A stretch of 64,000 nucleotides of DNA, from assembly GCF_000003815.2 (NCBI RefSeq), contig NC_049994.1, positions 12,776,662 to 12,840,661 of the forward strand. The letters are read 5' to 3'. Under the pieces are notes generated by a model. That model saw only the letters and a program-made list of their open reading frames with translations, was not told where the DNA came from and ran no database searches. How positions within the stretch are numbered: position 1 is the first letter of the stretch; each line of letters starts with the position of its first letter. This document shows, in pieces, positions 10,501-63,012 of the stretch. Origin of the DNA: Branchiostoma floridae (lineage: Eukaryota > Chordata > Leptocardii > Amphioxiformes > Branchiostomatidae). The position numbers and the translations under genes were made by a program.

Positions 10501-11491
10501 CCTCCCTCCCGCAGTACTACGGCGGTTTCTCGGCGTCGGGCCGCTACTGGAAGGTCACCATAACGGCCACCTATTCGGGCTGGGAGCCTTGGCTGAGACT
10601 GTTTCACCTGTATGGAATCAAAGGTATTTACCAAAATATTTAGATCTGACATCTTTGATAATGATAAGATTGGTAAGTACATTAAATATTGCTTGCTTAT
10701 TAGAAAATATGATTAACACGTTTAGTCGTACCTAATTGTATAAAGAGTTTTGTTATCCTATGTCCTTTAGTCAGTAGAATTTTAATGTTAATTTAGTATC
10801 CCTTTTTGGTAGTTTGTAGTCGACCATACGAAAAGTCATTATACGTTTTGTCGTGTCATTTAAGCTTCTTATCTGATCCTTATTAATGAAAGTTTATCTG
10901 TGTTCTTAGTTAATGCCAGGCTCACTTTTCCATCGGTCAGTTGCGGAATGAAAAAGTATGATGTAATAGACAAAGCACATGAAAAAACACGCACTAATTT
11001 GTATGATTTAAATATGTCTTCTTTTAGATACACAATTTAATTTTCGTATAAGCAATTTCCCTTCCGGGCCCCAGTTTGGAAATGTGACCTCGGTATAACA
11101 TATCTTAAAGTTAAAACTTGTAAACGTTTGACAGTCCCATATTCTAACAAATGCAATGATTTTTGATTCCAGACTCACCGTACCTCTGCAGGGACATGGA
11201 TCTATTTAGTTTTGACCCCGTAGTACGAGGGCCTACCTCGAGGTACACCAAAGACCGGGTGAGAAAATCATTCTTCTTCTTTCCTTACTGCTGAGCCCCT
11301 GTAACAAGGATGGCTAGCAATGTTCACTTTCTATTACGTACCATCGGGCATCACTGTTTTCTTGAATGAATGAATAAATGAATGGATGGATGGATGAATG
11401 AATGAATGAATGAATGTGTGTTTCAGTGGCTTATTTTACCATTATTGTGCAATAAAGGCGATTATTATTATTATTATTATTATCATCATCA

Positions 11492-14500: not shown

Positions 14501-16889
14501 TGTGGATGGCCCTGAAAAGGGATTGGAGCTTTGCTGGTCTTCTTTGGTAGAAGCACAGCGTGGAATCCGGATGGGGAGAACGCCTGTGACTATGATACTC
14601 GTATGGAACATAACTTTATTTCATGCCTATAATTTCTCCCTTAAGGAGATATGTGAAATAGGAAGTACACCAGGTATGTAGACTAGACAACTTACAGACT
14701 TCTTTTCTACACTTAAAGTAGCAAAAGCAAGTATAGATATAAGATTGACGTTTGTTTCTTGACTTTATCTAGTGCTGTGACGTGCAGCTGCACGAGTTCC
14801 TGCCACACGACGAAAACTTGCTGTGACGATTTTCAAGATGTCTGCCAAGGTGAAAAGGACGACTGGAATGGGACCAATGTCGTCAACGCTACTTCAGCAG
14901 AACACAGCGAGGTAAGCAGACTTCTCGTCGTCCTTCGGCTGATTTCTATGTATTGATGTTGTCTGTATGTTACACTTCCAGATGACTGCATTTTTGAACA
15001 TATGATTACCGTTCATTCGAGAATAGTGCCAGCAAGTTGGTACGTCATTGATCATGAATCAAGAAACTCTTTTTACACGCCCATTGCTTTATTCACATTG
15101 CATACACAAAGGAGGTTACAGACGGTCACCGAAATGTTGTGTGAAATGACGACATGCAGACATTATACTATTACCGTACACTATTGACAATTTGGGTATT
15201 CTTCGACAGCCCCTGCAGTGTGTGGCTCCGTGGGGCTTCCGTGCTCACTTCTGGATGGTAGCGAGCTGCCCGCCGGGCTACACCGACGACGTCGTCCGAG
15301 GGATGTGCGAGACTTCGTACGAGAACGGCGACATGTTTCTCCACGCCCCTGTCACGGACAACACCACCAGCACCCACTACAGAAACGTGTTCTGCGCCTT
15401 GTGCAATAACGCTAGGTTCATGATAGGGTGGAAGATGGTTGCAAAATGTGGCAGAGGCGTGCGATCACTGAAAGAAATACTACAAAGGGAGAATGGTTGC
15501 AGTCAGTATTTCCGACCCGCTGGTTATTCTCCTGCGCGAGTTTGCTTCCCTCCCCCTAGAACACCCCCTAGTCCGAACCCACGCTGCGACGTCCAAAAGT
15601 GTAGAAATATCACGGCTCTTTTCTTCGCACGCGGTTTACCCTTTAGAAACTCCGCTTGCGCGAATTGTTACGCAGATGAAATGTCTCTTCGGGAAGCGTC
15701 GTGTTCCGACGATGACTTTACATGGGCTGGCTTCTTCTCGACCATAACTGTCCTTTTCGACTACTCGGCCATTTCCAAAAGCAAGATGTCGTCCAAAGAA
15801 CTCCAGCTGACCGACCACACTGAGTCATGCCCGGTTGGATACATATATGATCCGTTTGGTGACATTTGCCGCCAAATTTCGTCTGCTGCCCCGCCTAGAA
15901 TGGGCAAAGTCGCTAATGGTGTCCAAGAGACGAGAGCTTCTTTGGAAGATTCTGCACGACCTCTACTGTCTGCTTCCTTGGGTAATCCTGAAAATGTACG
16001 CAGTGCCAATGATCCCCTTGGTGGTAGTGCCCAAACCTCACGTCCTACGGTAGATGACACACCCGCTCCAAATACACGTCTCCCAAAGCTAAGCGCTACA
16101 TTTCTGGTCATCAACACTGTCTCTGGTGCTTCTGCATCAATTTCCATCCTATCCTTCCTCTTCAGCCTACGACGCCACCCCCGTCCTGACACCGTCATGA
16201 AGATCTGCCTCCTGACATGCCTTCTTCTGGCACAGATCAGCCAGCTGCTGGGTCAGGTCGTTCCTTCAGCAGCCTGCTGCACGGCCATGTTGGTGTGCAC
16301 CCTCTGCTTCTGTCTGGCCGCTAGTCTGTCTCTCACTGCCACGATCCAACACCTGTCTGTCCTCCAGCGAGGCGGGACCTGTAAAGCAACTGGCCATCTC
16401 TTAGTCATTGTGCTTATTCCGCTAGCAGTTTCGGGAGGTTACGTCGCTTTGGATGATAACATCCGCATAGGGGTGCCTCAGACTTTCCATGTTTTATCTC
16501 ACTGTTGGATTCGAGACCCTACCAAGATGGCAATCTTCGTAGTCGTGCCCATACTGATCTCCACTGTAGTCGACCTGTACTACCTGCTGCGCGTTGCCAT
16601 TAGGTGCGCTGCCGCGGATTGCGTGCAGTACTCCTTTCTGGCACAGGCGGCGCTGCTTTTTGTCCCGTACACCGGTGTCATGACAACTGGGATTCTCACG
16701 GCATTCGTTGGTGTAGAGTTGGACACGGTTTTCCTGTACATGGTGACCTCTCTAGGTGGGGTTGACGGGGTCCTGTTCTTGGTATTTTCCATTGTTGGCG
16801 ATGAGAACGACAACACTTCGAACGGCAACGCTCCAACTTTGCCTATTCAAGCTGTAACTTCGAGTTCACTCAACTCTTCTACCAAATAA
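5900..16889 (+). CDS. adhesion-class 7TM receptor with F5/8C and somatomedin-B domains (12 exons)
   Basis: Exons: 5900-5912, 6063-7526, 8889-9353, 10147-10623, 11173-11258, 11593-11758, 12006-12176, 12987-13009, 13505-13602, 14039-14167, 14773-14911, 15210-16889. All junctions are GT-AG and every phase agrees, giving one 1637-codon frame (1636 residues). Domains: hydrophobic anchor 16-35, disordered stalk ~40-492, F5/8C-like 493-647 and 648-806, linker with Cys ~807-955, somatomedin-B pair ~956-1055, Cys-rich ectodomain to ~1360, 7TM ~1365-1607. The protein is expected at the plasma membrane with a large outside region that binds matrix or cell-surface ligands. I recognise the class (adhesion-like GPCRs with SMB domains occur in invertebrates) but not the gene. 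No classic GPS cleavage motif was seen. Exon 6 and the exon 7 donor are the least certain parts. Confidence 0.82.
7860..8720. repeat. intronic repeat block with (TGTA)n and tandem octamer hairpins
   Basis: In receptor intron 2, 7860-8250 holds a (TGTA)n tract (7887-7910) and text of an interspersed type (AATAACTCAAGAACGCCTGG, GGGCCCCCTAGCAACC and a second GGGCCCCCTAGC copy). From 8280 to 8693 a unit of roughly 120-130 bp recurs four times. Each is centred on ATTATGCAAAT ... ATTTGCATAAT inverted repeats: 8280-8310, about 8410-8440, 8538-8570, 8655-8690. No coding function. Confidence 0.65.
8889..9353 (+). CDS. receptor exon 3: first F5/8 type C (discoidin-like) domain
   Basis: A 155-residue domain in a single exon with phase-1 introns on both sides. 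Family features visible are ALDGNPSAVW, PLVVDFGSPHELLQIRI, a central YNIYVTN strand, GFSGIGRSWKLVF and a closing VDFFGSKG. F5/8C domains are beta-barrels that bind lipids, glycans or proteins at cell surfaces; the ligand here is unknown. The symmetric 1-1 phase fits exon shuffling. Confidence 0.85.
9354..10146. other. receptor intron 3; no feature resolved
   Basis: The intron contains a G run at 9536-9547 and a GC-rich piece (9600-9900) with repeated GGTAGC/GGGTCCCGG-like text that is probably repetitive. I see no exon or RNA gene in it. Confidence 0.4.
10147..10623 (+). CDS. receptor exon 4: second F5/8 type C-like domain
   Basis: A 159-residue exon, again bounded by phase-1 introns. It has the same overall plan as the preceding domain: NWFFVLDYRASHTMTKLRI corresponds to the core strands, then a WTHVLTV strand, GGFSASGRYWKVTI and a final FHLYGIKG. 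It diverges from exon 3 and contains one Cys near the middle. The repeated single-exon 1-1 layout suggests tandem exon duplication followed by divergence. Confidence 0.8.
11173..13009 (+). CDS. receptor exons 5-8: linker between F5/8C and SMB domains
   Basis: Exons 11173-11258, 11593-11758, 12006-12176 and 12987-13009 connect in phase. The second has the sequence YVYYVQWTDTGHRIEYVIGD, which looks structured but matches no family I know. The third is Cys-rich (CRRDVQPDMLLPFDADVCC onward) and has two in-frame donors, after 12071 and after 12176, so a 35-residue optional segment is possible. The eight-residue exon 12987-13009 is a microexon and is only moderately certain. Confidence 0.6.
11361..11525 (+). 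repeat. (TGAA)n and (ATT)n microsatellites
   Basis: Receptor intron 5 contains TGAATGAATGGATGGATGAA-type tetranucleotide repeats at 11365-11415, then an (ATT)n/(ATC)n tract at 11461-11525. A long open frame through the tract codes only Tyr/His runs and is not a gene. Confidence 0.9.
12391..12526. mobile_element. foldback (MITE-like) element in receptor intron 7
   Basis: The arms are inverted: ATAGAATACAACACAGTGTA at 12397 onward pairs with TACACCGTGTTGTATTCTAT ending at about 12521, extended by CATCACCC / GGGTGATA. The GC-rich centre is about 70 bp. There is no coding capacity. Confidence 0.7.
12585..12715. repeat. imperfect inverted repeat GGTACCATCC...GGTACCC
   Basis: CCTAGGTACCATCCGGG near 12586 and CATGTGGTACCCAGACTAG near 12695-12713 form decayed inverted ends around ATAGTGTATAGTCACTATAG. 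It resembles the ends of the element at 48725-48836. Decayed MITE is the simplest reading. Confidence 0.4.
13119..13300. mobile_element. near-perfect foldback element in receptor intron 8
   Basis: ATGCCACAAAACAGTTACTC at 13119 is mirrored by GAGTAACTGTTTTGTGGCAT ending at 13300, and the pairing continues inward (GGATATGATTTT / AAAATCATATCC, then CTATCTTTCG / CGAAAGATAG). The whole 180 bp folds into one hairpin. A partial relative is visible near 47085-47165. Confidence 0.8.
13505..14911 (+). CDS. receptor exons 9-11: two somatomedin-B domains
   Basis: Exons 13505-13602, 14039-14167 and 14773-14911. SMB-1 has the pattern C..C..C...CGCDKKC..FGDCCHNYEAAC; SMB-2 is CKGRC then CSCTSSC then CCDDFQDVC, which is the eight-Cys SMB framework with its diagnostic CxC and CC pairs. 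SMB domains are small knotted modules that in vitronectin and ENPP proteins mediate protein binding. Introns interrupt each SMB unit inside the CxC-to-CC segment or just before it. NGT and NAT sequons follow the second domain. Confidence 0.85.
15210..16889 (+). CDS. receptor exon 12: Cys-rich ectodomain and 7TM bundle
   Basis: One large terminal exon (559 codons plus stop). The ectodomain part contains NVFCALCNN, paired Cys segments such as CPPGYTDDVVRGMC and CPVGYIYDPFGDIC, and a FFSTITVLFDYS stretch. From memory these recur in invertebrate SMB-containing receptors. Seven hydrophobic helices follow between about 16085 and 16795. HCWIRD in the second extracellular loop is the Cys-Trp hallmark of class B2 (adhesion) receptors. 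The tail is short (~30 residues), Asn/Ser/Thr-rich. The acceptor could be six bases further on (CTGCAG), which would change two residues only. Confidence 0.85.
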   Translation, partial: PLQCVAPWGFRAHFWMVASCPPGYTDDVVRGMCETSYENGDMFLHAPVTDNTTSTHYRNVFCALCNNARFMIGWKMVAKCGRGVRSLKEILQRENGCSQYFRPAGYSPARVCFPPPRTPPSPNPRCDVQKCRNITALFFARGLPFRNSACANCYADEMSLREASCSDDDFTWAGFFSTITVLFDYSAISKSKMSSKELQLTDHTESCPVGYIYDPFGDICRQISSAAPPRMGKVANGVQETRASLEDSARPLLSASLGNPENVRSANDPLGGSAQTSRPTVDDTPAPNTRLPKLSATFLVINTVSGASASISILSFLFSLRRHPRPDTVMKICLLTCLLLAQISQLLGQVVPSAACCTAMLVCTLCFCLAASLSLTATIQHLSVLQRGGTCKATGHLLVIVLIPLAVSGGYVALDDNIRIGVPQTFHVLSHCWIRDPTKMAIFVVVPILISTVVDLYYLLRVAIRCAAADCVQYSFLAQAALLFVPYTGVMTTGILTAFVGVELDTVFLYMVTSLGGVDGVLFLVFSIVGDENDNTSNGNAPTLPIQAVTSSSLNSSTK

Positions 16890-31500: not shown

Positions 31501-34500
31501 CGAGCTACGTCACGCCGAAATGGCCAATGGGGTGCGACTCTCGCGATTCGCGAGATGTGAGTTACTGCGAGATTTGCGCGAGATTTGAATTAGAATCAAA
31601 ATGGCGGCTCGGTGAAAGGTGGAATCGGCAAATTTTGAACTTTGAGCGAAGTTTTCGGGGGGAAAATAAGGGCGTATCAAAGGCGTACATCCAAAAAACA
31701 GGGCGTACATTTTGTGCTTTTTTTTAGCAAAGGCCGTACATTGTACGCCCGTACGGATGGCTAGCTAAAAGCCTGCCTGAACCGAAACGTTTTTGCAAGT
31801 CCAGAACCGGTCCGGCGTACCGGCAAGCTTTATGTTTTGCTCATTTTTTATTGGCGCGCCGTGCGACCATCATTTCAAAAATAGGCGCATTATTAAAATT
31901 ACGGTCGCGATGCGACCAAATCTAGTCGCAGTCACGAGCCCTGCTAGTTTACGAATTTCCAAATTAAACTTCTTTGGTTAGTTTATTTTCCTAGCTCTTC
32001 ATACAAAGGGGGCAGATCACATAACTGATTATCGCGATACACGCAGAAGTCTATTGCAGCAGTTTAGATTTATGTATGTTGAAACAGAATCTCAGTGTGA
32101 GTGCAAAATGATTAAAGAAGAAATAAGAATGATTCAATGAACGCTGGGTGTTTGTGGCCTTTGTCTGCGCTAGACAATGCAATACACATCCGGCTAACGA
32201 ACTGCTGTTTATGTAATGAAAATGACGAGTTTGTTTAAGCAAGGAAGTTGAAACCTCCTTGGTTTAAGACATACTTTCCTATTTATAACATAAGCCAAGA
32301 TCTATCCCTAGCATTTATTTCTTTCCGACATGTAGAAATGAATATGAATGGCCCGTCCAATACGCGCCGACCGTAGGATTTCCAAATAAGTTGGAAATAT
32401 CGGGCCAAACAAATCACAGCTTCATTAATTATGACTGTTTTTTTTTAGTATTTTGTAGACCTTTCTTTCTGACCTTGATTGTATTCCTAAAAATGTGGAT
32501 GTCGTTTCTTTTTATAGTTGTATTTTGTTCCACTTTGTTCTGTCAGACGATGTCACGGGTAGACATACCAACCATTCAATACCCCCCGACACTCCCCCTT
32601 ATTTTGTGTTTAAAATGTAAACCTCATTGCTTATTAATTGTCCAAGCATAGCCTAGGCTGGGTTGCAGGGGTAGTAGTTGCCGTAAACAGTAAACCCGCG
32701 ACCCAAGCTTGGCTTTGAGAATAGGCGCCGCCAAGCCTTTGTCTGCCTATTTCCCCTACACGTCTGGTGTAAGGGTCCTAGAAATTCCTGTACAAGCGCG
32801 AGTCCAGGTATGTAAGAAAAAAACAAGGACATTACACGCCGAACCAGGAAAGTCATGTACACAGCCAGGACACAGAACATTTCACAGGTGTGTAAGTCCC
32901 TTGAAACACCTGGAAATTATTGATTTCGTGCAGTGATGTTATCCCCATTCAAAGTTATGGTCATTGTTCTCACACTGAAGAAATGTAAATATCGGTTATG
33001 CTTCTTTATTTGACAGAAGTGGATCTGTGCTTGACCGCTCCCTGCCAGCATGGCGGCAACTGCTCGAAGGTTCCTGGTGGATACATGTGTGACTGCACTG
33101 GGACTGGCTACACGGGCAAGAACTGCACTGAAGGTCGGTGGTTGGATGTTGTGTTTGTCAAACCAGTTTGGAATAATTTCGATATGCCAAAGAAGTGCTG
33201 TGGAGTAATGTTTTGGCTTGTTTGCTTATTGCTTGTCATCCTCTCTAGATCTGTCACTCCCTCTCTGTCACTGTTGTTATATGTGTGTGGTCATTCGTGT
33301 GTGTGTATGTTTGTGTGTCTTTGAGTTGTCATGTACATGTTTTTGTATATCCATGTGCTTTTGTGTGTGTTTCTCAGTGTGTGTGTGTCTTAAAGCTTGA
33401 CGTGTTTGTGCATGCATGTGTGTGTGTATCTTTCTATCAATTTGTAACTTACACAATGCAGCATTGCTATACATCCTCGGTGCTGCTATTTCTGCCCATG
33501 CTTAGATATGCTGCTATTTCTGCCTATGCGTAGATAAAGCATATTAATAATATTTGCTGCTATTCGATTACAATCAAATATTAGTAATGACAGTAAGTAA
33601 CAGTAAATATTAGGTAAGATAGAATAGTTAATATACACTTCAAAAACAGTGGCAGCTAGAACATTATTGAGAAGCTAATAGTAAGAGGTTACAACTAGAT
33701 GGAGACAGAGGCACAGCTGGAGGTAATCTTTTATTAGATGTCACTTACTTTTGAAGTGCATCTGAAAGTTGCCTATTGGCTATTGATGACAAAGTCATGG
33801 TCTGGTGAACCCTGGAGCAGTTTAGTAAGACGTTGCTGTATGAGGCATTCAACAGTAGAGGTGAGTTTGCTGTGTAGCAAGTTGGTATATGTGATCTGTG
33901 TCAGAAGAAGCCCCACAGACACATTGTTTGCCCTTGATGTTCATCTTGTACAACATACTGTTCAGTTGATACTTACCCATGCGTAGCCTGGCAGCTTGGA
34001 AGTTACTCTGCCATGGGCTGAGTAGTCGGTAAGTTTGGTGGTCATGCCTAATTGAGGTGAACAGGTGCTTTTTGCTTACTCTATTGAAATCGACGAGGCT
34101 GCGGGCATCTCTGACTGTCTGAGGTAATTTGTAAAAATTTCATAGGTCTGGGTCCAGCAATGAGGAACACGAAGGTGAGTGTTGTTGCATAATTGTAGAT
34201 GTGTGGCAGACTGGGCACTTCTTGTTGATGGAGTAAGCAACTGTAGATGTGGTGATAAGGGGTGAAGTCTGCCATTTCTGATGGCCTTGTTGGGTTTTAT
34301 GGTAATAGAATGGGACAAGACTCTAAATTGAGACAAGACTCTAATTGTATGCTGTAAAGGTTGTTAAATCTATTCAACAGCCAACCAAAGGCCTGAATTT
34401 ATAACCATTTCATTGCCTGCAGACGTGGATGAGTGCCAGACAGGTGGCCACATGTGCGACGGCAACGCCACCTGCACAAACACTGTGGGAAGTTACAACT

Positions 34501-37500
34501 GCAGCTGTAACAGTGGTTACGATGGTGACGGGATGAACTGCACAGGTACGTGTTATTGCTACAAGAACTCCGAGCTCATTACCGAGACGTGGGTTCGATT
34601 AGCAGTTTATCACACAACTGGAGATCAGCAATCAGGCCTCAACAACATCCCACAACGTTCAATCCTTGTAAGACGGGGAACAAGAGATGCTAAATGGGAT
34701 TGTGAGTGTGTGAGTGAGTTGATAGGCAAATGGTTCTCACCACACGGTAAAAAGAAAATATACAATTCCGCCTCTGAGAAAATAATGAAAAAAAAATTAA
34801 GAGGTGAAAACTTAAGAAGTGTTAAGAAGTGTCTTGAGCTTTAGTTCTTCAAGGAGTTATGTACTCAAAAGGCTTTTATGATATAGTGTGCTTCAAAGAG
34901 TGCTGATTATCTCAAATGTGCTATTTTTATCTTAAAATGCCTTTACAGACATCAACGAATGTAATGAAATGAACGTTTGTCACCCCACACTGGCTACCTG
35001 CCATAATACCCCTGGATCGTACCATTGTGACTGCAAGGAGGGGCAGATAGGCAACGGCACATACTGTGAAGGTGAACAAATTTATATTAACTGTCAAAAG
35101 ATTTTTTATGGTTGGCCCCAGCTTGGACATACCAGTATTGTAAGGGATTGTATTTTTTCATTTTGGGTGCTGACATAACGTTACATGTAAAGCCTGGGAT
35201 GATATGTTGAGCTTAGTTGAAAATGTAAGCAGTAGCATTTAAGACACTCTTTTTTACACAACCACAGCTTTATTTCCACCAACGTTCTGGTGACCGTCTG
35301 TCACCTTCCTCAGGGCTGACTGGTTCACAATTTGTACTGCAGCAATAAGTATTTTTTCTTACAGATGCGGTCACAAATACAAAGTATTTATACATATACA
35401 TTTCAAACAATGAAGTTTATTTGCATGTTTGTGCCCGAGGGCTAATTGCAATGGTATAAACATAGTGGATATACAAGTGACAATGAACAGTTATAAACAA
35501 TATGCTACTCTAATACTAGACTAAGTGTTGGCTATTTCTAAACAGGTTGGGTTTGACTTCTTTTTTGGAAGAAGAGGGAGATGAAAAGCCCCACCTTTTC
35601 TAAAATTGTGGGTTCTGCGATTTTCAAGAGAAAACTGGCTTTCTGTTCGTCTGTCAATGTGGGGATGTTGGGATAAGTCTTATACATTGCCCTGAAGAAG
35701 GTGACAGAAGGTCACCGAAACATCGGTGGAAATTGAGCTGTGGTTGCGTTAAAAAGAAGGTCTTAATGTTCCAACGTGATGAAACTATTGATGGAGCACT
35801 AGTAGCAAAATCACATTGCACTTACTAGCTACTTGCAAAAGAAAGAAAAGAAGAAAGGAAACTATTGGTGTATGACTTAAGAAATAGACAGCATGGAACA
35901 ATTTGTCAAAATAGTGTGTCTGAATACAATTGGTAAATAAGTAACTAGCTCAGCTTGTAAAATTTCGATGACTGCACTGGAATTGTGTTTATTGTTTCTT
36001 TCTTTACAGATGTTGACGAGTGCGCCTTTGGTATTGATGCCTGTGACGTTCATGCGACATGTAATAATACAGACGGGAACTACACCTGTACCTGTATTGC
36101 TGGGCACGATGGTGATGGTTTCAACTGCACAGGTGAGCAAGGGCGAGGTCAACTGTATGCTACATTGTAGGTGATGTACGTTCACTTTTCTAAAACGGCC
36201 TCACCTCTCCCACCACTCAAAATTGACGACCACCCTCTTCAAGAGGTTAAAGTGGCGAAGTGACTTGGCTTGTACATTCAAGCAGACCTCAGATGGAACA
36301 CCCATGTGGACTCCATGTTAAAGAAACAAGTAGCATAAGACTCTTCCTCCTCAGAAAACTGAAATCATTTCGACTGTCTACAGAGGACCTGGATAGACTA
36401 TAGTTTGGGTACCATTCTCCATTATAATAACTACTGGCTCAGTCTTTTTGCTTGCTAATCTGTGGGTAAGAAAGCAAAATGACTGAACTATCAGTTGCTA
36501 TAATATAATAGAGGATGGTTCCCAGGCCTAGACACTGTTGGAGGCATTCATCACAAAATAAAGACCAAAGATGCACATAGAACTCAGGAAAAATACCATA
36601 GCCATGAACTTAACAATTTACCTCATCGATTGAGTGAATAGCTCAATATGCTGTTGATCATGTGAAGGGTTTGCTTCGGAATCCATGAAATGTTTTTGAA
36701 ATGAATTTCTGTCTGTAGATATTGACGAGTGCTCTACCAGCACCCACACCTGCCACGCCCATGCCACCTGTGTGAACACTGAGGGGAGCTTCACTTGCGA
36801 GTGTAATGATGGTTATGCCAGAAATGGTACAGAGTGTGTAGGTAGGTACATGTACATGTTCAGGGAAATTGGCTAATGCAATTATGTATGTTCTATCTGG
36901 TCGGTCAAAAACTTGAGATTTCATTTGACATTTTTGTTGTTAAATCTGTCATCTTAATTTAATGAAAACACATGTTTCGTCAATTCCATGTGTCATGAAG
37001 TTCAGATTTTTTGTCCCAGGACGGAGGGACAGGTCCTGGAAACATCGCTGGTTATGCTGTATGGTGGTAATAACTGTATTTTTGTTCCTGACAGATGTTG
37101 ACGAGTGCTTCCTTGGTACAGACGCGTGCCAGTTTATCTGTGAAAACACAGACGGGTCCTACACATGCAGGTGCCCCGATGACTACATACTTGAAGCTGA
37201 CAACACAACCTGTGCGCTGAACGGTGTGTCTCTCATATTTTTGGTTGAATTTTCTGGTAGCCGGGCATTCAATTCTGCCAAATTGATTGTCAATGGGCCC
37301 AGTGCACAATAAGATCATCAATATCACAGATGTAAATGAATTAGGTTACAGGATGTTGTAACATCAGCAACTTGTCAATGAGATAAGCTACTGTCCTTTC
37401 TGTTGAGATTACATTTGAAAGTGATCCAGCTTAAGATTATTATTATTGTTGAAAAGGTCCTAATTATGTTCACAGCCACTAAGTTTTAAAAAGGCCGTGA

Positions 37501-54299: not shown

Positions 54300-54729
54300 A
54301 CTCCCTATTCCCCTCTCCCCCTTCTCTCTCCTCTTTCGTCAACATCTAGAAAGAAATGGACTATTTCTGAATATGATGCGTAGATGAAGGTTAACATACA
54401 AGTAGTAAGAAACAGTGCAAAAGTTATTAAAGAAACAGGCTAGTTTTGTAAACGGGCAGACTTTTCAGATAGCATTGTGAATCGTATGATGTGTTAACAG
54501 TAGGTAAAATCCCGCTCTCTCTTTACCGTACCAGGTCAGGGGGCCCCTCGGCAGAAGGACGGCTCCTGCCCGCCGGTAGACCTGGACTCCTTCGGTCTGT
54601 GTGCGGACCTATGCGATGCGGACGGGGACTGCCCTGGCGAACTGCTATGCTGTCCGAACGCCTGTGGCGCCACCGTGTGTCAGGAACCAGTACTGCAGAC
54701 CACAGAGGCACCGCCTGAGCCCCCGACAG
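52587..54729 (+). CDS. WFIKKN-like exons 1-2: signal peptide and WAP domain
   Basis: Exon 1 is just the signal peptide (17 codons plus one base). Exon 54535-54729, phase 1-1, holds the WAP four-disulfide core: [16 protein letters not shown], then [17 protein letters not shown], then TVC, eight Cys with the diagnostic CC. It ends in a Pro/Glu/Thr linker. Confidence 0.9.
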
Positions 54730-55430
54730 GTACGACAATCAAATATTCTTCTTCAATGGCGGAATTTCGAAGATCATAACGTTTTCTTATATCACCTAAG
54801 CTAACCATGACATGTTCCAATATTCCCTCATAATAGCTGATTGTAGCTATAATGCCTAGTCTAGTAACGTTACATTTGCTATTCCTGAACGAATGAACTT
54901 TGCTCGCAAAAAAAGTTGTTCAATGTAAACCTATATGGCAAGAAGAAAACGTTGCCTTTTACTCATTTATATATAAAGTCACAGTAGTGAAAAAGATTTT
55001 TTAGAAATGAAAAGTGAATGTGTGTGATAAATACCGAGGCTTCTATCGCGTATTTTAGTGTGTGAGTGTGTGTTTTTTTCGCGTGAAAACCGTACAAAAT
55101 AATCTCCAAGTACACCCTACGGTACCATAAGATAGTATCAAAAGCTAACAGTGGAGTGAAGCCGGACTAGGAGTGTGTATGCTCCAATAGCCTCTGCCAA
55201 CTTTTCTACTATCTTATGCAACCGTAGGATCTGCTTGGAGATTAGTATACAAGAGAAATATACAATACATCTACTTGGAGGTGATTAACAGTAACCTTGT
55301 GCCTGTAGATCCATGCCTTGAGGTGACGTGTGTGCAGCAGGGGGCGTCATGTGAGGTCATGAACGGTCAGGCCATGTGCAGGTGTCCCTCCGACTGTTCT
55401 CGGTAAGTGTGTGTGGGTTTGTGTGTGTGT

Positions 55431-55462
<32 letters not shown>

Positions 55463-55929
55463 GCGTGCGTGTGCATGTGCGTGCGTGTGCGCGAGCGCGC
55501 ATGTGCGCGCTTGTGTGCGTGTGTGTGTGTGCATGTGTGTGCATGTGTGTGTGTGTGTGTGCGTTCGTTCGTTCGCAGTACTCAATTCGTATATGCATTT
55601 CTATGCATTGCATGTTCCCAACCCTGATTCAAGTTTTAAAAAAAACATTGCACATCAACACGAAGAGAAACTTGGATGCGCAGTGGAAAAAACAAAAGCT
55701 GCTTTCGATAATCCAAATCACCCTGTTGTACAAAATATCTAGCAGAGGGTGGTTTCGATCCACCGACCTCTGGGTTATGGGCCCAGCACGCTCCCGCTGC
55801 GCCACTCTGCTCTCATAGGTAATATTTTTCACATACGTTTACTCAATGTGCCAGATTGATTTCGACATTCCCACCGCTTGTTGCATCAGCTTGATCCCTT
55901 ACTCATAGCTGTTGTGTGTGTGTGTGTAC

Positions 55930-55960
<31 letters not shown>

Positions 55961-58900
55961 CGTGCGCGTTTGAGTTGGCGTGTGCGTGCGCGCGCGCGTT
56001 TGTGTGTGTGTGTGCATGTGTGTGTGCGTGCATGCGTGTATCTGTGCATGTGTGTGTGTCACGTGAGCGCGCGCGCGCGCGCGTGTACATGTGTGCGTTT
56101 GTTCGTTCGTTCGCAATACTCAATTCGTATATGCATTTCATTCGTCCCGGGAGCCTCAGCTCCCCCCCCCCCCTACTTTTGCCCCTCGCGGGGTCATTTG
56201 GGGGTATATATGCAGATGCAGATGCATTTCTATGCATTGCATGTTCTTCCCAACGCAACTCTGATTCAAAAAAAAATATTGCACATTAACACGAAGAGAA
56301 ACTTGAATGTGAAAAAGAAAGCTGCTTTCGATAATCCCAAATTAACCTGTTGTACAAAATATCTAGCAGAGGGTGGTTTCGATCCACCGACCTCTGGGTT
56401 ATGGGCCCAGCACGCTCCCGCTGCGCCACTCTGCTGTCATGCGAAACTTGCGTATATATCTAAGTCCGTATGAGGCGCGCATGGAAGTATTTGCCTCCAC
56501 CAGGCCCCACAGGTCGTTGGAAAAACAATAGAAATCAGACAAACGTAAACAGGTAACATGTCAGACGAGTTACCTGGGTCGCTAACCATACTTCTCGATC
56601 AGCTATCTCAATCTGGCATGTTATGTATCTATATTTGTCCAATTTGTACTATTTTTCCCGCGACCTGTGGAGCCTGGTAGAGACTAAGAGCTTCATACGC
56701 ACCTCAAAAGGACTTGAATATATACGCATGTGTGACCCCACCTTAAATCAATGTGCCCGATAGATTGCAACATCTCCTCCGTTTGTTACATCAGCTTGAT
56801 CCCGAACGCAGGGCCCGCCCACAGCTGGCATGTTCCCAGGATTGTTACCCGCAGGTTGGCCATTCGGTGCAAAGATTATGTCCTATATAAACCTATGCAT
56901 AGATGTTCTGTCTATTCAACGGTTGGGGTGTTAAAACAAAAACTAAACACGAGGAAAAACATTTACAGTGTAATCAATAATAAGCCAGTCTTTTAACACT
57001 CCTTGGCGTCTACAGCTACAACGTGTTGCTGTACAATTGTACGTACGTAATGTCATTATATAGATGAAGAATGAAAGTCGATCTGTGGTTTACTGATATT
57101 GTAAACCTCAGTGTCAGTACGTGTGGTGGATGAAGAAATTCAAGTATTTCGTTCTCCTTCTTAACAAACCTAAGACCGATATCAAAACTTTCCAGAGCGC
57201 TAAAATTGCGAAGATTTTTCGAAAAACGAAACAAGATCAAACATGTATTTATATATGATAATCAGATAAGTTTTGTTTCTGCATCCCCAGGTTTGGCCAG
57301 TCCCCAGTGTGTGACATGTCGGGGAACTCTTATAACAACCAGTGTGTGCTGGACGCCGTGGCCTGTCAGCTGGGAATCACCTTGGAAACGGTCACGTGCC
57401 CACAGCCAACGGGTGAGCATGCGTATTGTGTCGGAATTGTTTTACTGCTGTATTACTAAAAAGGGTAGTAAAATTATCCGAATGAAAGCTCATCTATGTT
57501 GGTAAATTCCATAGTGAAAATTTAAACTTTGTTCCAACACAAGGGAAGAANNNNNNNNNNNNNNNNNNNNNNNNNNNNNNNNNNNNNNNNNNNNNNNNNN
57601 NNNNNNNNNNNNNNNNNNNNNNNNNNNNNNNNNNNNNNNNNNNNNNNNNNATCAGATGATGATTCGCTGCACTAATCCGGAAGACGGTGGCAGGTTTCGC
57701 CTTCCCGCCATTTATGATTCGCTGCTACCTGACGTCATCCGACGACTTCCGGATTAGTGCAGCGAATCATTCATCTGATGAAGGTCGGAGTGTTCGGCCG
57801 AAAATTTATGGTGAGTTTCTTCCCTTGTGTTGGAACAAAGTTTAAACTTTTCACTATGGTAGTAAAATTAGTTGGAACTTACATGTATTACGGTTTCATA
57901 TCTACTATATTTGAAGAGGCATATACTTATCGTCAGTAACGTGCCTTGGTCGTGAAAATTTTCCGGGACGGGGGGTGACACAGGCTTACCATCACCTTTG
58001 ACCTATTACTGACGTACCGTTTCCGCAAGATCCAATACGTCGCTTTTCTTGAAAGGGATCCGTACAAAAGCATCGATATCGGGTATACATTAGTTAAGAG
58101 GGCAAATCTTGTTTTGGTAAGGCTAGCGTTTTTTTAGCCTTTTTTGGCGATGCCTCCGGAGCGAGACTAATAGTATCTTTAAAATTCTTTTCAACGCCAG
58201 CTCCCGTAACCGAGGCCCCGGCTACCCAGGCGCCAGCTACCGAGGCTCCGGCTACCGAGGCCCCGGCTACCGAGGCCCCTGCCCGCCCGCAGCCCGGTAC
58301 CTGTACCCTCCCGCCGAAGACCGGCCGCTGCCGCGCCTTCACGTTGCGGCACTACCACCACGCCGGGACCGGCCGCTGCCTGCGGTTCGTGTACGGAGGG
58401 TGCGGGAGTAACGGGAATAACTTCAGGAGCCTGGCGGAGTGTCAGCGGCAGTGTGGCGCCCCTCCCCCGTACACACCCGGGCAGCAGGATCCTGACGTCT
58501 GCAGTCTTCCGCTAGACGCCGGGCCAAAATGTGGGCAGTTTCAAGTCAGGTAAGATTGTCTCTGAAACTCTCCGACAATAATATTTTTCGGGTGTTAAGA
58601 TAAAAGTTGCCAGTCATTCACCAAGGAGGCGCAGCACGAGGTTTCATGCACTTTTGTATGGGCAGTTACAAGTTAGGTCAGCGGAATTTTCATACGAAGC
58701 GAAGCTTGCCAATCATGTTTTAAAACCCTTAAACTGCCAAACCCGGATATATCCGGCACACAGTAGAAACTTTGCGCGCGCGTAGCGCATGAACCCTGGA
58801 AGTTAGGTACTTCGGCCTTGTTCGAGGGGTTCTTTTTGGAGGTCAGCGGCCAACCCTGGCACTGATAGCATTTTATAGTGCTGAAACTCTGGCAGTTTAA

Positions 58901-60327
58901 GGGTTAACAGCAACTCAGGTTAGTGCGTACGTGTGTGTAGCGTAATGGGGCACACTTACTGCGAAAGGCATAACATACATGTTTTGTATCTTGTTATGTT
59001 GCAACAAGGTTAAGTTTACTATTGAGTTTCATGCAGTCGTAAGAGTAACATTGAAATGCACGATCTTTTTATCCATCTGCCTCCCCCACAGGTACTACTA
59101 CCGTTCAGAAGACGAAGGGTGTCATCTGTACGTCCACGGCGGTTGCCAAGGCAACGGAAACAGCTTCGTCAGTAGGAAAGCATGTGAGGCCCGGTGCAAA
59201 CCAGGTACGCAACAAATCACATAGACCTAAGGGAGAGGTGGGGTAAATACTTTTGTGCTTTCACGTTCGTATGGTATCTTGTAAACTTGTAATCACGCCG
59301 GCGCCTTCGAAAAGAATTTCATCAGGTTGGTAGATCATAGGACATACGAGTTTTCTTAACGTTTTCCAAGGACGTTATATCAGATGTGATATAACGTCCT
59401 TGACATAACCAGTTGAGAAAAACTGGTTGTGTAAAAGAAAACTCTTATGTCCTTGTAATATAATCACACCAGTGTATTACTTACCAAAACATACAAGCGA
59501 ATAGGTTTGAAGCGTCCTTTGTAAAGAAATCAGTAACATCAGTCTATTCTCGTACCAGTTATCCACTCGAGTACCCCGTCAGTCTTTAATGTATTGTGTA
59601 TGATTGTCACCAAAGTTACATGTACATGATTGTTACCATGTGATCTATACTTAGCTCAGTGGGGCAAAAATATTCAATAAAGGTTTTCATTCATCCATTG
59701 ATATTTTGTTCTCCCGTACTCTCCACAGCTGCCTGCGCCCCATGCCCTGTCCGCTGGTCAGAAAGACTGTCTAAGCACTACTGCCACAGCGGCTTCGGTA
59801 AGTACACTGGGGACGAGAACAGTTCCTCTATGTCATAAGACTTAACAATGGATCATAATCGTTTAAATGTTTTACAGTAAGGTTTTCTTGTTAGCTTTTT
59901 TCTTTTTTTTTCTATCATTTTGTACCGTTCGCGATGCTAGCTACCATTCACATGTCAAATAAATAAACTTGAAACTAGAATATTATTTTGAAGCTATACA
60001 TTTAGCTAGTTCACCTTCAAGATGTTAAAGATACTAGTAGTCTCATCATAAAGGTGGTAATGACTTCACTGTTTTCCAACGCTTCTTTTTCTCTTTTACG
60101 TTAAAGAAATAAAGTTGGAACATACTTATAGAAATGAAATGTTGTAAGGTAATGGTTGCATTTTTACTCTCCATGCGGAGGTTCGGCTCCAGTTGCTAAC
60201 TTTTGGCTGGTGGACAGAAAGAAAACGAGAAATTTAAGAAAGCCTTTACTTTTTGAAAAGTAAAACACATCAACGACTGCCGGATCCGAACCCTTGCTTG
60301 GAATGTAGGAGTTTTGACCTTCAAGTT

Positions 60328-60365
<38 letters not shown>

Positions 60366-61104
60366 TATGCCATAAAGCTGATCATGACTTGGCTGTTCTC
60401 TTTTTCTCAGTTATCACCGGAAGGGTGACGAACATCCGGCGGGTCAGCCCATTGGACGACAGGAGCATCGTACAGGTGCGCGTTACCGAGATGCACCGCG
60501 GTGGCGGCCTCGTTCTGGACGGGCGCACGCGCACTGCCATGATCATCACGGAGAATCAGTTTGCGGAATGCGCATGCCCAAATCTGTCTGAAGGTGGGAT
60601 TTGATTGACGTCTAACTTGATATTTTGTGTTTTCTGATGAGATCATCTTATGTCCACATTTTGCTCAGTCTCCTTTGCAAAGCCTGCCTAGGCGGCCTAT
60701 ACAATACACCGTGGGGCTCTACTAAACCGGGCTAAAGTTTTCAAGCCCGCTGTTAGTCATTCAAAGAATAATCTTTGCCTAAAGAAAATACGTAGGCAAA
60801 TTCCTGATTGGTTTGTGGCTGCGCCCACAAGTGGAAACCTCAGCCCAGGTTAAGGGCCTTCCCAAGGTTGATGAATAGGCAACTTAGGACAATCCTTCTT
60901 ATATTGCGTAGTACTGTATAAGTCAGAAATTGACGTTTTACTCCTTGTTAAACAGGTAACAACTACATCTTGATGGGCGACGTGAGTGGAGGGTACGGCA
61001 TGGTATCCAGATGGAACTACGCACGACCACTGGACAGCGCCGCCTACCGGGACCTGATGAATGTGCACCACTCTGGGAACCCCTGCAGAGGTTACGGGCG
61101 CTAA
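52587..61104 (+). CDS. WFIKKN-like: secreted WAP-Kazal-Kunitz-Kunitz-NTR protein, WFIKKN-like (9 exons)
   Basis: Exons: 52587-52638, 54535-54729, 55309-55402, 57291-57412, 58201-58549, 59092-59204, 59729-59797, 60411-60593, 60956-61104. All are GT-AG with consistent phases; 441 residues. Order: signal peptide ([18 protein letters not shown]), WAP ~28-68, follistatin/Kazal ~84-152, Pro/Thr/Ala repeat linker ~155-180, Kunitz 1 ~183-233, Kunitz 2 ~250-306, NTR ~310-441. Vertebrate WFIKKN1/2 have WAP, Kazal, Ig, two Kunitz and NTR, and bind GDF8/GDF11-type ligands; here the Ig domain is absent. A secreted antagonist or protease-inhibitor role is inferred from family only. The terminal AATAAA is at 61458. 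Confidence 0.87.
52639..54534. other. WFIKKN-like intron 1
   Basis: It contains a direct repeat ACTGGGCTTTACTCCAA at about 52964 and 52988, CT-rich sequence at 53575-53670 and a long (CT)n tract at 54191-54330. No exon is visible. Confidence 0.6.
54191..54330 (+). repeat. (CT)n microsatellite
   Basis: Nearly pure CT dinucleotides over ~140 bp, with a pure core of ~50 bp at 54241-54292. Leu/Ser-run frames here are artefacts. Confidence 0.95.
55102..55242. mobile_element. MITE-like foldback element, AATCTCCAAGCAGATC family, copy 2
   Basis: AATCTCCAAGTACACCCTACGGT at the left and CCGTAGGATCTGCTTGGAGATT at the right are inverted ends ~140 bp apart, matching the element at 3058-3191. ATAAGATAGTA / ACTATCTTATG form a second inner pair. 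Confidence 0.75.
55309..57412 (+). CDS. WFIKKN-like exons 3-4: follistatin/Kazal domain
   Basis: Exon 55309-55402 gives a follistatin-type N-lobe ([17 protein letters not shown] ... CRCPSDC), and exon 57291-57412 the Kazal core ([20 protein letters not shown] ... [12 protein letters not shown]), joined at phase 2. The first lobe plus Kazal make the FS unit seen in WFIKKN, agrin and follistatin. The 1.9-kb intron between them contains two antisense tRNA genes. Confidence 0.88.
55740..55811 (-). tRNA. tRNA-iMet-CAT: initiator tRNA-Met (CAT), copy 1
   Basis: On the minus strand 72 bases from AGCAGAGTGGCGCAGCGG to ACCACCCTCTGCTA fold as a cloverleaf with a CAT anticodon in GGGCCCATAACCC. The three G:C pairs before the anticodon loop and the T loop ATCGAAA, lacking the usual TTC, are eukaryotic initiator hallmarks. 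TTTT follows within about 10 bases (plus-strand AAAA at 55732-55735), a Pol III terminator. Antisense to the host gene. Confidence 0.96.
56364..56435 (-). tRNA. tRNA-iMet-CAT: initiator tRNA-Met (CAT), copy 2
   Basis: As far as I can see its 72 bases are identical to the copy at 55740-55811. The same short terminator follows (plus-strand AAAA at 56356-56359). Both internal promoter boxes are intact, so both copies should be functional. Confidence 0.96.
56493..56693. mobile_element. CTACCAGGCTC foldback family, copy 2
   Basis: GCCTCCACCAGGCCCCACAG at the left pairs with CTGTGGAGCCTGGTAGAG at the right, ~200 bp apart. Inner AAAACAATAGAAA / GTACTATTTTTCCC also pair. Related to 46101-46306. Confidence 0.7.
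57464..57870. mobile_element. palindromic insertion with 13-bp flanking repeat, containing an assembly gap
   Basis: GGTAGTAAAATTA occurs at 57464-57476 and 57858-57870. Between them, CATAGTGAAAATTTAAACTT to GGGAAGAA (57510-57550) is mirrored by TTCTTCCC to AAGTTTAAACTTTTCACTAT (57817-57857). Further inside, ATGATTCGCTGCACTAATCC GGAAG (57657-57682) mirrors CTTCCGGATTAGTGCAGCGA ATCAT (57746-57770). The 13-bp repeat looks like a target-site duplication. It lies in the WFIKKN-like intron 4. Confidence 0.75.
57551..57650. other. assembly gap (100 N)
   Basis: Exactly 100 N, usually a placeholder of unknown true size. It falls between the two arms of a palindrome, a common place for assembly to fail. 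Confidence 1.
58201..59204 (+). CDS. WFIKKN-like exons 5-6: repeat linker and two Kunitz domains
   Basis: Exon 58201-58549 opens with five to six copies of a 15-bp unit coding EAPAT, then Kunitz 1 ([13 protein letters not shown] ... [13 protein letters not shown] ... CQRQC), spacing canonical, P1 residue Arg after the second Cys, so trypsin-type inhibition is plausible. Kunitz 2 spans the intron ([14 protein letters not shown] ... [11 protein letters not shown] ... CEARC). It has nine rather than eight residues between its first two Cys and Gly at P1, so it is probably not a standard serine-protease inhibitor. Confidence 0.9.
58613..58900. other. WFIKKN-like intron 5, nothing resolved
   Basis: The intron 58550-59091 holds AAACTGCCAA / TGGCAGTTTAAGG-type inverted pieces (58732 and 58891) suggesting a decayed foldback element. 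No exon seen. Confidence 0.35.
59340..59453. mobile_element. foldback element with nested hairpins
   Basis: Outer ends GGACATACGAGTTTTCTT (59340) and AAGAAAACTCTTATGTCC (59435-59452) are inverted. Inside, AAGGACGTTATATCA / TGATATAACGTCCTT (59368-59401) is a perfect 15-bp stem with a 4-base loop, and AACCAGTT / AACTGGTT a third stem. Intron 6 of the WFIKKN-like gene. Confidence 0.75.
59729..61104 (+). CDS. WFIKKN-like exons 7-9: NTR (netrin-like) domain
   Basis: Exons 59729-59797 ([10 protein letters not shown] ... HYCHSGF), 60411-60593 ([12 protein letters not shown] ... CACPNL) and 60956-61104 ([16 protein letters not shown] ... NPCRGYGR, stop). Cys positions and the beta-strand pattern V-I-x-G-x-V / Y-I-L-M-G fit the NTR OB-fold found at the C-terminus of WFIKKN, PCOLCE and TIMP-related proteins. 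The 60411 acceptor follows a (TA)n tract closely. Confidence 0.85.
60332..60364 (+). repeat. (TA)n microsatellite
   Basis: About 16 TA units immediately upstream of the 60411 splice acceptor region. The length may vary between individuals. Confidence 0.95.
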
Positions 61105-61643: not shown

Positions 61644-61649
61644 TTTATT
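61644..61649 (-). promoter_or_regulatory. poly(A) signal AATAAA of the Arg-rich peptide gene
   Basis: The plus-strand TTTATT at 61644-61649 reads CAATAAAGC on the minus strand, 266 bp past the stop codon. With the signal at 61458 it defines two convergent transcripts whose ends are under 200 bp apart. Confidence 0.6.
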
Positions 61650-61914: not shown

Positions 61915-62485
61915 CTAAATGTCTTGCTCAAGACTTCTTCTCGTTTGACCTTCTTTCTGATCCGTGAGAGCGTCCTCCCCTTCCCCGTTCTCTAGTCCTT
62001 GTGTATTCCACTGTTCACTGGCCTCATCAAGTTCCTCCAGGAGCGACCTCGCCTCTTCCACAACCTCCCTCAACTCTGAGTCAGCTGGACGGGTAAAGGA
62101 AAGACAGATATCATGAGAAAAAAAGCCAAGTACAAATTTTGATTGACTTGAGATGGCACTCAGGGTTCTTTCTGTAGTGCAGAAATTCATTAGTCAAGAA
62201 TACTAGAAGTATTGTAGACACTGAAACAGCAATGTTTATGTTGTAGTATACAGTGTACATCAGTTAAAACGAAGTCTTTTTCGCTTCGTATAAATATTAT
62301 TTGTACTTATCCGTGGCAAAATTAAGACTAAAGCCGTCTCATTTGTGATGACCAAACGTACCATCTGCATCGACATCCAGACGACCCCTTCTGCGCCTGC
62401 GCCGACGCCTCCATCCCTCGGAGTCGTCGATCAGCGTTGCCATGACAACCATCGTCACCAGCATCATGCAGACAAACAGCTTCAT
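61915..62485 (-). CDS. small secreted precursor with octa-arginine tract and acidic tail
   Basis: Coding exons 62485-62362 and 62084-61915 (minus), joined GATG|GTACG ... TCCAG|CTGAC in phase 1, 97 residues. Residues 1-16 form a signal peptide (MKLFVCMMLVTMVVMA, likely cleaved after VMA or a little later). Residues 25-36 are W, eight Arg, G, R, L. The remainder is strongly acidic with a predicted helix (SELREVVEEARSLLEELDEA). A short basic segment after the signal peptide followed by an acidic propiece resembles the layout of piscidin- or styelin-type antimicrobial precursors, and it could equally be a neuropeptide-like precursor. I cannot name it. The gene faces the WFIKKN-like gene tail-to-tail. 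Confidence 0.68.
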
Positions 62486-62917
62486 TGCGTAGCTTCAGCT
62501 GAAGGGGGGGGGGAGGGGATGATTACAATTAATTGGTGGAAGTGTTTATCTCTGTACGTTGTGGTAAGACGAACTTATTTCAAGTGACAAACAGTTGGAA
62601 GGATATCACTTCAACTCAAGAAGCTAACCCTGTTTTGCTTGAAAGCGACAGTATAATTATTCGAAGAAGTACTATAAGACTTTCTTTGACTTGGGTTATG
62701 TGTTAGAAAAGATTTTCATCAGTTATTTAAGTTGCAAGTTTTGAACAATTCCTCAAAAAAAGTCCATCTCTATTCCACACCCTCCAAATAAATATTGAAA
62801 CACGGAGAAAAAATACGGTGTTTAGGGTGCGTACATAAACAAAGAATTCGAAAAAAGCGATTGAGAATATCGAATGAAAATTAAGAAAACATGTTGGGAA
62901 GTGAGTTTGATACTTAC

Positions 62918-62980
62918 AGAATTCCTGTACAAGTAGATCACGGCACGATGTCACGCTGAGGTCACGGCTGGTGGGAATGA
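62918..62980 (-). other. probable non-coding first exon of the Arg-rich peptide gene
   Basis: On the minus strand a strong donor TTCT|GTAAGTATC lies at 62917/62918. The coding exon's acceptor is C8-TTCAG| at 62499, 13 bases before the ATG. The 5' edge is estimated from the TATA-like sequence upstream. Confidence 0.5.
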
Positions 62981-63003
62981 ATGAGGAGGGCTCGCGGGGA
63001 TGG

Positions 63004-63012
63004 AAATATATA
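63004..63012 (-). promoter_or_regulatory. TATA-like box of the Arg-rich peptide gene
   Basis: The minus strand reads GTATATATTTCC. It lies about 30 bp upstream of the inferred first exon, the expected TATA distance. Confidence 0.5.

Follow-up and report, generated by a model that had tools for sequence, protein, structure and literature searches.

The window analyzed here is a 64,000-nucleotide stretch of the Branchiostoma floridae genome (contig NC_049994.1, positions 12,776,662 to 12,840,661 of the forward strand) with a GC content of 40.5%. Toward its end there appears to be a small animal gene on the minus strand, predicted to encode a secreted peptide precursor in which one tryptophan and eight arginines are followed by an acidic tail. 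This octa-arginine gene converges tail to tail with a WFIKKN/GASP-type gene on the plus strand (54504-61104).

The predicted gene comprises three exons, a TATA box and an AATAAA signal, and all of its parts given below lie on the minus strand. A pattern scan found TATATA at 63007..63012, 95 bp 5' of the exon-1 donor, where it would serve as the TATA box. Exon 1 (62918..62985) is a putative 5'UTR exon whose start was guessed from the position of the TATA box and which ends at TCT/GTAAGT, a donor that ranks 582 of the 8025 GT sites in the window. Intron 1 (62499..62917, 419 bp) is predicted to lie within the 5'UTR and to end 13 nt before the ATG, and its acceptor, with a long stretch of C and T, takes first place among 7341 AG sites in a weight scheme. 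Exon 2 (62362..62498) carries 13 nt of 5'UTR, the signal, the cationic core and the first acidic residues, LDVDAD; translation would start at the ATG at 62485, and window positions 62362-62485 translate to MKLFVCMMLVTMVVMATLIDDSEGWRRRRRRRRGRLDVDAD. Intron 2 (62085..62361, 277 bp) is predicted as a phase 1 GT-AG intron with the donor ATG/GTACGT (rank 179 of 8025) and the acceptor TTTACCCGTCCAG/C (rank 22 of 7341). Retention of intron 2 would end the frame after GTFGHHK. The coding part of exon 3 (61915..62084) encodes the acidic tail, with the helix-like segment LREVVEEARSLLEELDEA and, close to the C-terminus, a dibasic RR, and closes with a TAG stop codon at 61917-61915. The polyadenylation signal AATAAA, also from the pattern scan, is located at 61644..61649, about 266 nt 3' of the stop. 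Joining 62485-62362 to 62084-61915 across the GT-AG intron reproduces the 97-residue product of the preliminary description, and the two-intron gene proposed there is plausible as a predicted model with compatible phase and splice sites.

The spliced product can be divided into a signal-like peptide (residues 1-24), the cationic core W-R8-G-R (residues 25-35) and the tail (residues 36-97). The signal-like part (62414..62485) has a mean hydropathy of 2.71 across residues 3-19. A von Heijne matrix places the top cleavage site at DSEG/W after G24 (score 3.00), ahead of VVMA/T after A16 (1.30); S22 and G24 conform to the -3/-1 rule, and a cut at DSEG/W would make Trp the first residue of the mature part. 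The core (62381..62413) has a net charge of +9 and ends in G34-R35, which resembles an amidation signal. It contains seven R-R pairs and five furin-type R-X-[KR]-R sites, overlapping in each case, while the only dibasic site outside the core is the RR at residues 90-91. The tail of 62 residues contains 21 D+E and 5 K+R, giving a net charge of -16 and a pI of 4.05. Its best 18-mer, LREVVEEARSLLEELDEA, which was selected as the moment maximum, has a helical moment of 0.63, equalled by 0.14% of its own shuffles. Both the signal-like start and the order of W-R8-G-R and an acidic region of about 60 residues, as described previously, are thereby confirmed. The precursor has a single Cys, located in the signal, so the mature cationic region would be Cys-free. 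A core of Trp and eight Arg would not form an amphipathic cationic helix. The precursor does fit the general description of a linear cationic antimicrobial peptide (AMP), i.e., a Cys-free cationic peptide with an anionic proregion, with secretion presumed from the signal.

The octa-arginine tract (62387..62410) is encoded by AGG CGT CGG CGC AGG CGC AGA AGG, which uses 5 of the 6 Arg codons, and Tandem Repeats Finder at default score reported no array from 61,177 to the end of the window. The absence of an array indicates that the tract is not a simple DNA repeat, and with the five codons it rules out a repeat origin, as the first description of the tract had argued. It is the longest Arg run in any of the six frames of the window, the next longest being 6 and 5. 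The six-arginine run at 14084 (plus strand) lies a few residues past a stop codon and lacks a signal-like start.

The neighboring WFIKKN/GASP-type gene was recognized from its domains. Pfam matched a WAP domain (E 3.2e-9), two Kunitz domains (3.5e-17 and 3.0e-11, the latter partial), of which the second is split by an intron, and an NTR domain (9.5e-10) once three exons had been joined by eye. A Kazal match was weak and below the Pfam cut-off (3.6e-4), and an exon near 55,310 that looks follistatin-like to the eye gave nothing above that cut-off. No immunoglobulin exon was seen in this gene, where a gap of 100 Ns (57551-57650) may hide one. This domain set is reported from deuterostomes, with no trace found in protostomes (PMC3427181), and WFIKKN is reported from three lancelet genomes (PMC6071037). 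The domain set therefore marks the locus as deuterostome-type. Branchiostoma WFIKKN is described as having two introns beyond the vertebrate one, while in acorn worm and sea urchin most of the domains are separated by introns (PMC3427181). Stop codons and frame changes between exons make introns apparent between most domains of the gene studied here, which thus appears to exceed the intron number given for Branchiostoma in that text (PMC3427181).

Other features of the window are on the plus strand. Two weak F5/8 type C (discoidin-like) matches at 8834-9505 and 10080-10640 are below the Pfam cut-off. The open stretch at 15150-16886 (579 residues) resembles, on visual inspection, a receptor with seven transmembrane segments and an ectodomain rich in Cys, but has no Pfam match up to E 0.1. 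Calcium-binding EGF exons of an extracellular protein occupy 34368-37309 (EGF_CA E 8.1e-11 in 34368-34841), including a second EGF-like stretch seen by eye at 36944-37309. Beside long TG repeats, two similar stretches (55712-55819 and 56335-56470) encode 21 residues in one frame; they may represent a tRNA-derived short interspersed element.

Overall, the octa-arginine gene is a well-formed predicted gene, and our leading reading, to which we assign a probability of roughly one half, is that its product is the precursor of a linear cationic host-defence peptide, probably W-R8-amide, neutralized by its acidic tail. The preliminary description had raised a defence peptide silenced by an acidic tail, an idea that we keep as the leading guess. 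The signal would be cut at DSEG/W, and the tail (net -16) would neutralize the +9 core inside the secretory pathway. Removal of the tail near G-R, followed by a carboxypeptidase and an amidating enzyme, would then leave the core as W-R8-amide or a slightly extended version of it. The arginines could bind anionic surfaces such as LPS, teichoic acid, bacterial lipid and nucleic acid, with the single Trp as a membrane anchor, and the peptide might enter or disorder microbes in the manner of arginine-rich cell-penetrating peptides. Since the core is pure Arg and has no hydrophobic face, an amphipathic-helix mechanism is disfavored and electrostatic binding with cell entry is favored. Octa-arginine is a standard laboratory cell-penetrating sequence. 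The likeness of the tract to such sequences, which had been pointed out before, stands, as Trp and eight Arg are in effect the laboratory octa-arginine peptide.

Several comparisons with known systems, set out further below, would count for the host-defence reading. The order of parts and the charge balance match the precursors of tested AMPs (the myticalins and those of Ciona), the predicted gene plan matches that of myticalins, and the anionic amphipathic segment of the tail is like the anionic helix of Ciona precursors. The activity of the Ciona peptide KH.C7.94, Gly-Arg amidation in EeCentrocin 1 and the effect of poly-Arg segments would also count for it. Other points go against it. The five overlapping R-X-[KR]-R sites may lead to destruction of the octa-arginine tract, and the core, in contrast to most of those in Ciona, lacks a hydrophobic face; the cores of myticalins likewise have no helix but carry Trp, Tyr or Pro (PMC5577615). 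Salt is a concern for electrostatic binding, to judge from KH.C7.94, which is among the less salt-resistant Ciona peptides (PMC7387483), and from the myticalins. Of the seven myticalins that were tested, not one had an inhibitory effect on V. anguillarum, possible reasons according to the authors being the salty medium or intrinsic resistance (PMC5577615). Amidation may not follow either, given that the centrocins of S. droebachiensis are not amidated despite their Gly-Arg (PMC4805251). In the 1 kb upstream of the octa-arginine gene, the pattern scan found no NF-kB, AP-1 or ISRE pattern and only two GATA-like matches. The lack of these patterns and of a family match counts against the host-defence reading.

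An alternative that we regard as unlikely, though worth weighing seriously, is that the octa-arginine tract is a convertase cleavage linker removed by furin-like enzymes and a carboxypeptidase, and that the active product is an acidic helical peptide of approximately residues 34-89. The overlapping furin-type sites in the tract and the second dibasic site at 90-91 would suit such processing, as would a tail that is the longest part of the product and has a helix-like amphipathic segment. However, four residues are enough for a furin cleavage site, which makes eight arginines unnecessary. Moreover, RRRR lies within the predicted mature region of Ciona candidates and of myticalin C, and the acidic part is read as the propiece.

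It is improbable that the model is non-functional, i.e., a chance or decayed open frame next to splice-like sequence. This would fit the lack of relatives in Pfam, the PDB, NCBIfam, IMG/VR, GTDB and the window itself, the sequence collections among these being without animal genomes. The best Pfam profiles for the product, LigD_Prim-Pol (E 0.14) and Conotoxin (E 0.21), did not reach the cut-off, and none of the AMP families curated in Pfam matched. The best PDB sequence match had an E of 0.13 with no family match, and the prokaryote library NCBIfam gave no match. The pattern matches in IMG/VR (72, 0 confirmed) and GTDB genomes (569, 0 confirmed) say little, as these collections are not meant for animal genes. 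Within the window, no paralogue was found, the best non-self hits being E 0.015 by tblastn (16180-16127) and E 0.27 by blastn. Codon usage does not decide: although the CDS outscores the other five frames, its score is reached by 20 of 65 stretches of 291 nt that are free of stops, a set with overlaps and with training exons included. The middling exon-1 donor also fits a chance frame.

Against this, the octa-arginine tract and the composite gene model are missing from shuffled sequence. In 200 dinucleotide-shuffled windows the longest Arg run was 5, found in 11 of them, and none reached 6. The window has a single ORF in which a hydrophobic N-terminus is followed by a 12-residue span with a net charge of at least 8, compared with 0 in 150 shuffles; at lower charges the shuffles gave 0.053 per window (at least 6) and 0.27 per window (at least 5). 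A search for a signal exon, donor, acceptor and open second exon returned four models in the window, of which two represent the octa-arginine gene, each starting at one of a nested pair of ATGs, and the remaining two did not pass the charge filters, whereas 40 shuffles gave zero models with or without these filters. The latter control bears on the exon-splice combination and not on the charges, and the thresholds of the charged-ORF and composite-model searches were set after the gene had been seen. In addition, the parts are correctly ordered and the phase fits, TATA box and AATAAA are both present, and the model has no internal stop or frameshift.

We give little credence to the possibility that the hydrophobic stretch stays uncleaved, which would make the product a membrane microprotein with the octa-arginine tract placed in the cytosol by the positive-inside rule. 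In its favor, the 15 residues that follow the hydrophobic stretch carry a net charge of +5, compared with about +2 ahead of it, and the best cleavage score of 3.00 is modest, as the customary von Heijne threshold is 3.5. On the other hand, agreement with the -3/-1 rule at S22/G24 speaks for cleavage. The hydrophobic stretch and the arginines are separated by DDSE, much like ECE in the myticalin signal consensus, and precursors with a cationic core right behind the signal are known from the accounts of myticalins and Ciona.

We regard as very improbable a reading in which the targets of the released Trp-oligoarginine are host proteins and not microbes, the peptide serving as the animal's own convertase (furin) inhibitor or as a ligand of heparan sulphate. 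Polyarginines do inhibit furin, with Ki values of 0.106 uM for hexa-D-Arg amide and 0.0013 uM for nona-D-Arg amide, and 0.10 uM for W4-[R5] (PMC4482483). However, these inhibitors are D-form or cyclic, and a peptide of L-residues would be a furin substrate as well; nothing else tied the gene to the control of proteolysis, and the adjoining WFIKKN-type inhibitor gene is probably coincidental. We consider it equally far-fetched that the animal naturally secretes a genome-encoded octa-arginine as a cell-penetrating peptide (W-R8-amide) with a role as convertase inhibitor or cargo carrier in its own secretory or extracellular space, the acidic tail being an intracellular silencer and the likeness to the myticalin plan either due to convergence or left over from a family of much greater age.

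A precursor for a host-defence peptide of this kind would, if true, be a natural secreted source of near-octa-arginine, offering an entry to how a cell makes, stores and survives such a peptide and to whether an acidic tail silences an Arg core. If orthologues exist, they would also allow a test of convergence versus common origin for the gene plan that it shares with mussel myticalins. Among the matches listed in the openly licensed PubMed Central literature (titles and abstract starts), there was no natural secreted octa-arginine precursor.

The closest comparison for the layout is with the myticalins and modiocalins. In myticalin precursors the signal is conserved, the Arg-rich core is hypervariable, and there is an acidic extension (PMC5577615), and the order of signal, cationic core and acidic C-terminal extension is common to myticalins, modiocalins and the octa-arginine gene (PMC5577615). 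Exon 1 of myticalin genes is 5'UTR only, with an intron immediately before the ATG; exon 2 holds the signal, core and first acidic residues, and a second intron in phase 1 places the tail in exon 3 (PMC5577615), a three-exon plan given for all myticalin genes (PMC12294457). The predicted octa-arginine gene model matches this plan in its three exons, 5'UTR intron and phase 1 intron 2. Its intron 1 of 419 bp compares with 303 or 340 bp in myticalins, and its intron 2 of 277 bp with 289 bp in C10 and 1287 bp in A5, so that its introns are near the C10 values. The acidic extension of 62 residues lies within the 35-75 residues of myticalins and modiocalins (PMC5577615, PMC12294457). The signal ends in DSEG where the myticalin consensus has ECEG, Gly-Arg is frequent in myticalins (amidated by prediction) and present at 34-35 here, and RRRR occurs in myticalin subfamily C, where the predicted C10 mature region begins GRRRRYRYWRRG.

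The differences are nevertheless substantial. Myticalin cores are mixed and 23-42 residues long, whereas the core here is almost pure Arg and 9-11 residues long, and the Lys-Arg (or Arg-Arg) site between core and tail of myticalins is absent, LDVDAD following directly after W-R8-G-R. The signal agrees with the myticalin consensus MKGXXLLLLTIXXALCMIXECEG at 7 of 18 fixed positions with one gap, a score equalled by 5.7% of 50,000 self-made random signal-like peptides, the scoring having covered the octa-arginine signal and these peptides. The likeness of the signals is therefore not clearly better than chance. In view of this match, the missing Lys-Arg site and the much shorter core, we do not file the gene as a myticalin. 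Myticalins are reported only from mussels, whereas the octa-arginine locus carries a deuterostome-type WFIKKN/GASP gene.

Linear cationic AMPs of Ciona have a signal and a cationic region, with an anionic helix in 17 of 22 candidates (PMC7387483). Ci-MAM, Ci-PAP, KH.C1.640 and others share the part order of the octa-arginine precursor, Trp is frequent in their cationic regions, and some candidates contain RRRR or RRRRR (PMC7387483). KH.C7.94, which is Arg-rich, low in hydrophobicity and charged +11, was bactericidal to E. coli and S. aureus at 6.25 uM (PMC7387483). Ciona cores are mostly amphipathic with hydrophobic residues, unlike the pure Arg core here, and the signal consensuses MDRKIVFAL... 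and MNKSALL... differ from the octa-arginine signal (PMC7387483). By sequence comparison, homology to myticalins or to the Ciona antimicrobial precursors could not be demonstrated.

From amphioxus itself, BjAMP1 resembles the octa-arginine precursor in its length of 97 residues, in a signal predicted to span 24 residues and in having a single anionic and a single cationic region, but the order is reversed, with the C-terminal cationic peptide after the anionic region and RR75-76 (PMC4683396). Its primers, translated by eye, encode MARLAVF... and ...CKKFGRR, i.e., a different protein (PMC4683396), and the opposite region order and different ends exclude membership. Among the echinoid centrocins, EeCentrocin precursors end in Gly-Arg, and the EeCentrocin 2 heavy chain has Trp at its start, as proposed for W25 here; in the EeCentrocin 1 light chain, conversion of the C-terminal Gly-Arg to an amide was shown by mass spectrometry (PMC4805251). 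Unlike the octa-arginine precursor, centrocins have two chains and a 30-residue prosequence ahead of the peptide (PMC4805251). Poly-Arg segments increase antibacterial activity, and poly-Arg motifs of natural AMPs usually span 3-5 residues; piscidin TP4 has five arginines at its end, the run coming after an amphipathic helix (PMC12371492).

The preliminary description had stated that no described family has this exact layout, which the myticalins and modiocalins (PMC5577615) and the Ciona AMPs (PMC7387483) refute. Since the myticalin and Ciona precursors share the order of parts, the layout is of a known kind. The unusual feature of the octa-arginine gene is its homopolymeric core, which set against these systems is unusually pure in arginine.
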